Shown here: one piece after another, positions 2,575 to 51,848 of the stretch
Layout of the letters: every line of letters begins with the position of its first letter
Numbering within the stretch: the first letter of the stretch is position 1
NCBI RefSeq assembly: GCF_003718735.1
Contig: NZ_CP033460.1
Coordinates: forward strand, 2,294,001-2,358,000
Direction: 5' to 3'
Source of the DNA: Staphylococcus debuckii
Lineage (GTDB): Bacteria; Bacillota; Bacilli; Staphylococcales; Staphylococcaceae
DNA: 64,000 nucleotides
Notes under the pieces: model-generated
The model's database searches: none
Seen by the model: only the letters and a program-made list of their open reading frames with translations
What the model was told of the DNA's origin: nothing
Translations under genes and position numbers: made by a program

Positions 2575-2628
2575 GATGTGATGTGGGAGGGGTTTACCGA
2601 TGCGTGGTGCGGAGGGGGGACGCGAGAA

Positions 2629-2815
2629 TCTGGACACTTCTCTGAAACTTGTGTCCAGATTATGCCCTTTTCTAGACACTTCTCGAAATTTAGTGTCCAG
2701 ATTACATGCTTTTCTAGACACTTCTCTAAATCTTGTGTCTAGATCCACCCACTTTCTAGATTGGCAGTAGCTATCTGAACAGAAAATGCGCTTGTTCAAA
2801 AATCTAGCGTCTAGA
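2629..2815. repeat. Repeat array A: 31-bp inverted-repeat units at 42-bp period
   Basis: Units at 2629-2659, 2671-2701 and 2713-2743 start exactly 42 bases apart and are separated by 11-base spacers. Each has TCTAGACAC-like and GTGTCTAGA-like arms around 13 bases beginning TTCTC. Unit 1 carries a paired change in both arms (TCTGGACAC with GTGTCCAGA). A fourth unit starts in phase at 2755 but is stretched to 61 bases and ends at 2815. The same family recurs at 20262 and 50286. Confidence 0.93.
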
Positions 2816-2894
2816 TTCGCAACTTACATCGCCCCCCCTCTCCACGGATCTACCTTTTCCCACACCAACTCCCGCCAAATCTCCTCCCGCATAA

Positions 2895-2929
2895 AATAAC
2901 GGACCACCACGAGGCAGTCCGCTGTTATG
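2895..2929 (-). terminator. Terminator of hutG
   Basis: Read on the minus strand, a GC stem (CGGAC with GTCCG, extended by AAC with GTT around a two-base bulge) is followed by TTATTTT. It lies just downstream of the hutG stop. The stretch 2575-2943 otherwise holds repeat array A and G-rich or C-rich flanks. Confidence 0.7.
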
Positions 2930-2943
2930 TTCTATATCAAAAA

Positions 2944-20203: not shown

Positions 20204-20236
20204 AAAACTGGGGCATACGTGATGTCCCAGTTTTTC
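20204..20236 (+). terminator. Terminator of the thioesterase operon
   Basis: AAACTGGG-CAT pairs with ATG-TCCCAGTTT, followed by TTTCT. It belongs to a set of terminators in this window that share a GCTGGGAC/GTCCCAGC-like core. Confidence 0.85.
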
Positions 20237-20261: not shown

Positions 20262-20376
20262 TCTAGACACTTCTCAGAATCTTGTGTCTAGATTACACCC
20301 TTTTCTAGACACTTCTCGGAATCTTGTGTCTAGATTCACCCCTTTTCTAGACACTTCTCAGAATCTTATGTCTAGA
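20262..20376. repeat. Repeat array B: three 31-bp inverted-repeat units at 42-bp period
   Basis: Units at 20262-20292, 20304-20334 and 20346-20376 have TCTAGACAC and GTGTCTAGA arms around TTCTCNGAATCTT, with 11-base spacers TTACACCCTTT and TTCACCCCTTT. Unit 3 has ATGTCTAGA as right arm. The array has the same orientation as the one at 2629 and lies between the terminators of two convergent genes. Confidence 0.95.
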
Positions 20377-20461
20377 TTTTTCCGCTCCCAGCTTCCGCAT
20401 AAAGCACGGCTCCCCCTATATCAACTTTATCTCCGCCTCATTAATATCCTTCTTTTTCCAG

Positions 20462-20494
20462 AAAAAAACGACAGTGCCGCTACAACACTGTCGT
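20462..20494 (-). terminator. Terminator of the MFS efflux operon
   Basis: On the minus strand ACGACAGTG pairs with CACTGTCGT and is followed by seven T. It lies 24 bases after the MFS stop codon. Confidence 0.92.
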
Positions 20495-20517
20495 TTACCC
20501 CATAATATTTAATTAGC

Positions 20518-50170: not shown

Positions 50171-50194
50171 TTTAAATAAATATTTGATTGAGCG

Positions 50195-50227
50195 AGCTGG
50201 GACATTATTACGTGTCTCAGCTTTTTT
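50195..50227 (+). terminator. Terminator of the DUF4889 gene
   Basis: AGCTGGGAC pairs with GTCTCAGCT (one G-U) followed by TTTTT. Confidence 0.88.
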
Positions 50228-50285
50228 GTTGTAATAAGTGTGGGGGGAGGTCGTGCGGATGGGGAGGTGCGGGCGACAAGCGGAT

Positions 50286-50442
50286 TCTAGACACTAGTTT
50301 CTGAGAAGTGTCTAGAAAGCACCATAATCTAGACACTAGTTCACGAGTAGTGTCTAGAAAACATAATAATCTAGACACTAGTTTCCGAGAAGTGTCTAGA
50401 AAACACTATAATCTAGACATTAGTTTCTGAGAAGTGTCTAGA
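50286..50442. repeat. Repeat array C: four 31-bp inverted-repeat units at 42-bp period
   Basis: Units start at 50286, 50328, 50370 and 50412, exactly 42 bases apart, with 11-base spacers. They are the reverse orientation of arrays at 2629 and 20262. Arms are TCTAGACAC and GTGTCTAGA; unit 4 has TCTAGACAT. GGGGAGGTGCGGG at 50261 and CCCGCACCGCCCC at 50445 flank the array as complements (12 of 13). Confidence 0.95.
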
Positions 50443-50461
50443 TTCCCGCACCGCCCCACGC

Positions 50462-50495
50462 AAAAAAGGCACCAGCCAAAACATGACCAGTGCCT
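50462..50495 (-). terminator. Terminator of gltT
   Basis: On the minus strand AGGCAC and GTGCCT form the stem, followed by TTTTTG. It lies 76 bases after the gltT stop. Confidence 0.7.
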
Positions 50496-50570: not shown

Positions 50571-51848
50571 CTAAATGGAATTTAAATAATCTTTGTTTTG
50601 TTCTTTATCAAATACGCCTTCCCATTTAGCAATTACAACAGTAGATAAAGCGTTACCTACTACGTTAACACAAGTACGTACCATATCTAGTATACGGTCA
50701 ACACCGATTATCAATGCAAGTCCGGCTGCCGGCAAGCCCATGGAACCTAATGTTGTTAATAATACAACAATTGATGTACCTGGTACGGCTGCCATACCTT
50801 TTGAAGTAATCATTAAAGTAAAGATTAAGACTAATTGGTGAGGTAAACTTAAATGAATACCGTACATTTGTGCTACGAATAATGCTGCAATTGATTGGTA
50901 CAATGCTGAGCCGTCTAAGTTGAAGGTATAACCAATCGGGATTACAAAAGATGTAATATCTTTTGGTGAACCAAATCTTTCCATTTTCTGCATCATTACT
51001 GGTAATACTGCTTCAGAACTTGATGTTGAAAATGCCAGTAAGATTTCACTTTTCAGTACTTTTATAATATCAAATACACTTGAGCCTACCATTTTCGCAA
51101 CAATTCCTAGTACCACGACTACAAAGAATACCATTGCGCCGACAACTACAAGGACCAGTTTCAATAATGGAATTAATGCTGAGGCACCAAATGTCATTAT
51201 TGTTACACAAATAAATGCAAACACGCCGAGTGGAGCGAGTTTTAAGATTTTATTGATCATCCAGAATGTCGCTTCCAACACACCGCCTAAGAAATCTTTA
51301 ACGGGGTTTCCTTTTTCACCGATAGCCGCAATACCTAAACCAAAGAATACTGCAAAGAAGATAATCGGAAGCAATTCGCCTTTGGATAATGCTTCGAAAA
51401 AGTTGGTTGGAATAATATTTACAATCGTATCAATAAAATGATTACCGTATGTAGAATGTTCAGCTGCATGTGCTGATGATTCGTACTTCGAAATATCACC
51501 TTTAGGTAGTTTGTCAGGATCTAAGCCCGTCCCCGGTTTAAATAAATTTGCAAACAAAACACCTAAAGCAATTGCGATAGTCGTTATAATCTCAAAATAC
51601 ACAATTGTTTTCAAACCATAGCGCCCTACTGTTTTAGATTCACCTACACCTGAAATGGATAATGCGAGTGAACAAAACACGACCGGAATGACAATCATTT
51701 TAATTAAGTTTAAAAATATGTCACCAAGCGGTTGGATATAGTTCGCAACATCTTTATGTCCATATAATAATAGTCCTACAACAACGCCAAGAACCAGTGC
51801 AATCATAACCTGCATTGGTAAACTAATTTTTCGCTTAAATAAAGCCAT
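50571..51848 (-). CDS. gltT: Dicarboxylate/amino-acid:cation symporter (GltT/GltP family)
   Basis: A 425-residue importer of glutamate, aspartate or C4-dicarboxylates, with eight helices and two re-entrant loops. The serine-rich STSSSEAVLP loop and the FNLDGSALYQ segment are family hallmarks, and MVRTCVNVVGNA near the end binds substrate. The start ATG follows AAGGGGAG. The transported amino acid cannot be fixed from sequence; in staphylococci this locus is annotated gltT. Confidence 0.92.
   Translation of the reverse strand: MALFKRKISLPMQVMIALVLGVVVGLLLYGHKDVANYIQPLGDIFLNLIKMIVIPVVFCSLALSISGVGESKTVGRYGLKTIVYFEIITTIAIALGVLFANLFKPGTGLDPDKLPKGDISKYESSAHAAEHSTYGNHFIDTIVNIIPTNFFEALSKGELLPIIFFAVFFGLGIAAIGEKGNPVKDFLGGVLEATFWMINKILKLAPLGVFAFICVTIMTFGASALIPLLKLVLVVVGAMVFFVVVVLGIVAKMVGSSVFDIIKVLKSEILLAFSTSSSEAVLPVMMQKMERFGSPKDITSFVIPIGYTFNLDGSALYQSIAALFVAQMYGIHLSLPHQLVLIFTLMITSKGMAAVPGTSIVVLLTTLGSMGLPAAGLALIIGVDRILDMVRTCVNVVGNALSTVVIAKWEGVFDKEQNKDYLNSI

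Follow-up and report, generated by a model that had tools for sequence, protein, structure and literature searches.

In staphylococci, the STAR element is built on a 14 bp motif, T(G/A/T)TGTTG(G/T)GGCCC(C/A), whose copies alternate with recurring sequence of at least 40 bp. The account that gives this motif states that no function is known for staphylococcal intergenic repeats, STAR among them (PMC3532100). Stem-loop families, Sta-1 to Sta-4, are described for S. aureus (PMC2267715). In Streptococcus pneumoniae and S. suis, BOX elements consist of a boxA and a boxC end with tandem boxB copies, variable in number, between them (PMC3049150), and BIME-2 elements are cited as binding gyrase strongly (PMC2817692).

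The window, by which we mean the whole 64,000-nucleotide stretch of the Staphylococcus debuckii chromosome analysed here, contains ten units of the form TCTAGACAC-N13-GTGTCTAGA in three arrays (A, B and C), each unit with no more than three arm mismatches. Every unit is a 31 bp dyad, with 11 bp spacers between units, and all seven within-array start distances are 42, which confirms the ten in-register 31-base units at a 42 bp period reported in an earlier note on this DNA; 100 shuffles of the window gave zero units (chance expectation 0.00). All three arrays lie between convergent genes as called by a dicodon gene caller, and scanning the window against Rfam gave no matches at gathering score. 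The features are as follows, G014 and G018 being other genomes of the genus.

2575..2628, no strand assigned: G-rich left flank of array A, 3' of the plus-strand gene 1696-2574 (GC 0.63, skew +0.65)
2629..2743, plus strand: array A, three intact 31 bp units (starts 2629, 2671 and 2713; period 42) with 2, 1 and 0 arm mismatches
2755..2815, plus strand: fourth unit of array A, in register, split by a foreign repeat fragment (TCTAGA at 2755-2760; 3' part at 2798-2815)
2761..2797, plus strand: truncated module L, part of a genus-wide intergenic repeat, about 37 bases inside the fourth unit of array A (blastn 97.4% to module L positions 2-40)
2816..2943, no strand assigned: right flank of array A, C-rich beside the array, holding the terminator-like hairpin of the minus-strand gene
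20205..20236, plus strand: terminator-like hairpin of the left (plus-strand) gene, ahead of array B
20262..20376, plus strand: array B, units starting at 20262, 20304 and 20346, with 0, 0 and 1 mismatches
20459..20496, minus strand: terminator-like hairpin of the right (minus-strand) gene, on the far side of array B
50194..50227, plus strand: terminator-like hairpin of the left (plus-strand) gene, ahead of array C
50228..50285, no strand assigned: left flank of array C, G-rich, within the DNA that G014 and G018 lack at their orthologous site
50286..50442, minus strand: array C, units starting at 50286, 50328, 50370 and 50412, loops reverse-oriented (orientation R in 4/4)
50443..50461, no strand assigned: C-rich right flank of array C, belonging to the same insertion as the left flank 50228..50285
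50462..50495, minus strand: terminator-like hairpin of the right (minus-strand) gene (50571-51848), after array C

The right side of array A has a skew of -0.41 (2744-2943, split unit included), and the hairpin in this flank is on the minus strand and is accompanied by a T run. Elsewhere in the window, Tandem Repeats Finder reports a perfect 64 bp tandem duplication at 1286-1413 (2.0 copies, 100% match).

The chromosome holding the window (G000, 2,691,850 bases) has 86 units in 33 arrays, and a reversed control pattern has none. Among 84 genus genomes, including G000, the family is present only in G000 and in G049, which has 217 units; the remaining genomes give 0-2 pattern matches each, the same as the control (0-2). 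When units with up to four mismatches are counted, 53 of 54 within-array spacings in G000 are 42 and one is 47, and a G049 region sample with 156 of the 217 units has 134 spacings, 133 of them at 42 and the other at 41. Spacing in these two genomes therefore clusters at 42, as the earlier note had expected of a motif search, and the arrays, counted and placed relative to genes as it had proposed, number 33 in G000 and lie mostly in gene-end gaps. An exact-pattern scan of the genome_contigs collection, which may leave out near relatives of the window, found two unrelated records with one site each, and the same scan of viral contigs found no matches. A plasmid or phage origin was considered and rejected, as array B (20262-20376) has no blastn match in the plasmid or phage collections. 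It is well supported that two sister genomes carry a dense, well-bounded, lineage-specific intergenic repeat family.

Gap types were assigned with the purpose-written dicodon gene caller over 535 kb of G000, and single assignments may be wrong. Of the 65 convergent gaps, 18 contain an array, compared with 14 of 165 gaps between codirectional genes and a single one of 74 divergent gaps (Fisher tests: convergent versus all others, P = 8e-6; divergent, P = 0.001). These fractions are inflated because the analysed regions are centred on arrays. G-rich left and C-rich right flanks accompany 29 of the 33 G000 arrays, whatever the direction of the genes. The same skew is found in 30 of 222 control gaps (convergent 11/27, codirectional 15/128, divergent 4/67), in a comparison of gap halves for the controls with whole flanks for the arrays. 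The flanks do not behave as inverted-repeat ends: left flanks gave 18.9 against their own reverse-complemented right flanks and 23.0 against those of other loci, and the own value was the higher in only 6 of 32.

At orthologous gaps that could be paired, no unit is present at 16 in G014 or at six in G018, and the G014 gap is shorter than its G000 counterpart in 12 of the 16; five further relatives (L087-L091) have no unit at the array C site. In G049, of which 370 kb was examined in regions partly picked around known arrays and syntenic stretches, 21 of 22 arrays are at G000 array sites, 17 mapped by both flanks and four by one adjacent flank, with two sharing one G000 array. Since these sites are shared and the G014 and G018 gaps are empty, the family most likely spread before the G000 and G049 lineages split. 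G014 and G018 presumably belong near S. carnosus. Strain TM300 of that species is described as having no STAR elements (PMC5694512).

Copy number has changed between the sister genomes, and the G049 array has more units than its G000 counterpart in 17 of 21 pairs, the same number in one, and fewer in three (one G000 array is counted twice). When nearest units are compared between orthologous arrays, 4.6% of arm sites and 13.7% of loop sites differ. Regional spreading was rejected, genomic distance showing no clear relation to loop divergence either in G000 (rho -0.03, P 0.65) or in the G049 sample (rho 0.11, P 0.13). At one G049 locus (G049:C1:340994-344794, L143; orthologous to G000:512471), about 3 kb carrying two ORFs lies between two arrays. 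Both ORFs are distant paralogues (27% and 38% identity) of an ORF adjoining the single G000 array, and the layout looks as if the arrays mark the ends of a duplication or deletion.

The arrays are part of a mosaic. A second palindrome family (type 2, the 42 bp family being type 1) has the form TATTGGCCA-N15-TGTCCAATA, with 99 forward matches in G000, 35 in G049 and 0-2 in other genus genomes, including two isolated matches in G014 and none in G018; none is found in the window. All 47 of its spacings in the G000 regions, and all 8 in the G049 regions, are 41, and 15 of 18 type-2 arrays share a gap with a type-1 array in G000 regions that are themselves centred on type 1. To the right of the array at G000:1178887 (L072) is a hybrid unit with a type-1 5' arm and a type-2-like 3' arm (TCTAGACATTTCATGTCCAATGG), which suggests that the two palindromes recombine or are interchangeable. 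The third component consists of modules L and R, which are joined head to tail and belong to a wider repeat: module L has matches in 42 of the 84 genus genomes, with no match in G014, G018 or G062-G065, and by blastn it is present in 6 of the 33 G000 array gaps, with six more hits outside array gaps. L-R is nested within a type-1 unit, between TCTAGA and TTCTC, at G000 225001, G000 771407 and G049 801694. The last of these is the counterpart of array A and has the fuller module at the point where the fourth unit of array A is split, array A itself having a truncated L-R form.

Our best explanation, held tentatively, is that these are lineage-specific intergenic repeat arrays which also constitute phased sites for a dyad-symmetric, probably dimeric, candidate protein. 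Its two parts differ in strength. The identity of the family as a lineage-specific intergenic repeat, one part of a STAR/BOX-like mosaic element, is well supported, and the binding of a protein, its dimeric state and the effect of binding are what we infer from the symmetry of the arms, the near absence of compensation and the kept spacing. On the well-supported side, the repeat most likely entered mostly gene-end gaps in an ancestor of the two sister genomes; its arrays have since stayed for the most part where they were, while whole 42 bp units are gained or lost by duplication and deletion. As for mechanism, the putative protein would recognise, in each unit, two half-sites (approximately 5'-TYTRGACAY) inverted relative to each other in double-stranded DNA. 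As the units are about four helical turns apart, all sites of one array would be on one face of the helix, and the array could act as a phased platform, most likely a nucleoid-protein site or a boundary site between transcription units. Counting against phased sites is the period of the second family, which is 41 and not 42.

Over 187 units, distinct within their arrays and obtained by a search that itself admits only arms with up to three mismatches, mean entropy is 0.19 bits in the arms and 0.92 bits in the loop. Variability is mirror-symmetric between the arms (rho 0.92, P 0.0004), with positions 2, 4 and 9 tolerant in both. In 8 of 9 arm pairs, compensated changes either do not occur or are no commoner than in shuffles; pair 7 has one where 0.01 is expected, and the outermost pair is invariant (187/187). 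Summed over the arms, 115 mismatches are one-sided and 8 are compensated. With the units in one fixed orientation, 40 cells are of G-U type and 62 of A-C type, and wobble pairs are therefore not favoured on that strand. This pattern fits recognition of half-sites in duplex DNA better than a requirement for pairing, although the conservation of the arms may come partly from recent amplification.

The main rival is a young neutral repeat, and we regard it as a serious possibility. It supposes a neutral or selfish non-autonomous repeat in insertion-tolerant gaps, with copy number drifting by slippage and unequal exchange, and with arms and period that look conserved because the copies are young and homogenised. 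The gene-end location and the scarcity of arrays in divergent gaps would be expected from such tolerance, an argument also made for repeats of pneumococcus (PMC3049150), and the differences in copy number, the hybrid and nested units, and the loops of G000, which are more alike within arrays than between them (0.79 versus 0.64), all agree with it. Against it, loops and spacers have changed freely while the arms and length of the same units hardly have. Type-1 arrays carry at least 334 loop and spacer substitutions (148 in G000 and 186 in the G049 sample), a count that leaves out units of minority orientation and in which not all substitutions are independent, since an array and its orthologue in the other genome each contribute to the count; type-1 spacing has changed twice, once in G000 and once in the G049 sample. 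In type-2 arrays the loops carry at least 168 substitutions, and the spacing has not changed (41 in 55/55). Nor have single-unit sites decayed, there being 7 mismatches over 10 singles in G000.

Two comparisons bear on this constancy of length. The flanks of 14 orthologous arrays have 273-348 mismatches and 114, 76, 31 or 16 gaps as the gap cost rises, so that the length contrast between flank and array is roughly 8-fold at the strictest gap cost and larger otherwise, although this is a weak control. STAR arrays elsewhere drift in length: with distances of 100 or more dropped, spacings among the matches listed are 56-59 in G004 (19 spacings, 10 at 56; 47 of 49 matches, with one overlapping opposite-strand match left out of the set) and 55-59 in G006 (21 spacings, 8 at 56; 47 of 75 matches), and the few close pairs in G008 are at 58-59. 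A fixed period is thus not automatic for staphylococcal tandem repeats, and the helical spacing of the present family is kept against length change, with STAR as the contrast and the flanks as the weaker control. The earlier note held that exact phasing argues against slippage. Phasing by itself does not, because duplication of a 42 bp unit gives a 42 bp period, and both the copy-number differences between orthologous arrays and the greater likeness of loops within arrays are compatible with slippage; what supports the claim is that length is kept, with two events against at least 334 substitutions.

A wider role is conceivable, although we think it unlikely: a chromosome-organising system in which one dimeric protein would bind both palindrome families at no fewer than 33 boundaries in two staphylococci. 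Such a protein would read a shared core (approximately TRGACAC), both families being phased at about four helical turns, and the arrays would serve as nucleoid or supercoil boundary markers that arose in a clade without STAR.

The earlier note had offered either a phased protein-binding site or a repeated RNA hairpin. The kept length, the similar behaviour of type 2 and the drift of STAR support the note over slippage, and the RNA option is weakened. That option would have hairpins in read-through transcripts block polymerase, protect 3' ends or recruit RNase, with a two-way insulator between convergent genes, and we consider it quite improbable. A palindrome can fold in both transcripts, and arrays are enriched between convergent genes, where 14 of 18 gaps have no terminator-like hairpin before the array on at least one side; as such hairpins are present on both sides in only 4 of the 18, some arrays may be transcribed. 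However, terminator-like hairpins already intervene between gene and array in 29 of 50 intervals (left side of convergent gaps 7/18, right side 12/18, ahead of codirectional arrays 10/14), against 32 of 400 random segments. Units show no clear orientation relative to codirectional genes (8 versus 6 arrays), and the excess of one-sided over compensated arm mismatches and the unfavoured wobble pairs are not what a hairpin would predict. Least probable, and already largely refuted, is mobilisation of REP/BIME-like palindromes by a RAYT (Y1) transposase: the palindromes resemble BIMEs in being extragenic and regularly clustered (PMC2817692), but the transposase family PF01797 has no match in G000 and one partial match (model positions 56-104) in G049, the units keep a single orientation in 20 of 23 multi-unit arrays of G000 and 17 of 21 of the G049 sample where REP/BIME units alternate, and the complementary mutations suggested by the preserved palindromes in PMC2817692 are almost absent here.

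Together, a dense and well-bounded family, orthologous sites that are vacant in near relatives, a rigid period and a well-defined half-site make the function of the repeat testable. Among known systems, CRISPR arrays have spacers of about 30 bp, each unique, separating repeats that are almost identical; they were rejected as an identity, since the spacers here measure only 11 bp and the same ones turn up in different units and at different loci. In Neisseria, intergenic mosaic elements with dRS3 repeats are arrays that contain short inverted repeats, and by that description are similar to the arrays seen here.

A search of the literature by titles and abstract openings found no description of this repeat, and among the matches listed, papers containing the repeat or module sequence strings include none on staphylococcal repeats. 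The STAR motif TNTGTTGNGGCCC has no match in G000 and one in G049, and with Rfam also giving none in the window, no exact match to a described family was found. The view in the earlier note that this is no named element accordingly stands for the sequence itself, as far as searched, but not for its kind, composite intergenic tandem repeats being known.

The likeness to STAR lies in dispersed intergenic tandem repeats in staphylococci, with species-specific sites and copy-number change (PMC3532100), and in load, S. aureus having 62-90 motifs spread over 32-39 loci by the same account and G000 having 86 units at 33 loci. STAR units also stand beside or between modules L and R at all three STAR loci inspected, an association outside the published definition of STAR, and L and R occur in G000 as well. 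In a further genus genome, G041, the STAR motif matches 142 times forward and 129 times reverse, well above the 62-90 of S. aureus (PMC3532100), and there are 315 first-look module L candidates. The two families differ in that STAR has at least 40 bp between repeats and spacings of 55-59 in G004 and G006, whereas the present family has 11 bp spacers and a period fixed at 42; identity with STAR was rejected because its defining motif is absent from G000. The likeness to BOX is by architecture only, in outer modules with a variable tandem inner unit and several modules per element, and both are over-represented between convergent genes (PMC3049150). Unlike BOX, the outer parts here are skewed flanks or modules L and R, and there are two different inner palindromes. 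In kind, then, the family belongs with the composite intergenic repeats and is nearest to STAR and BOX, yet is not STAR itself.
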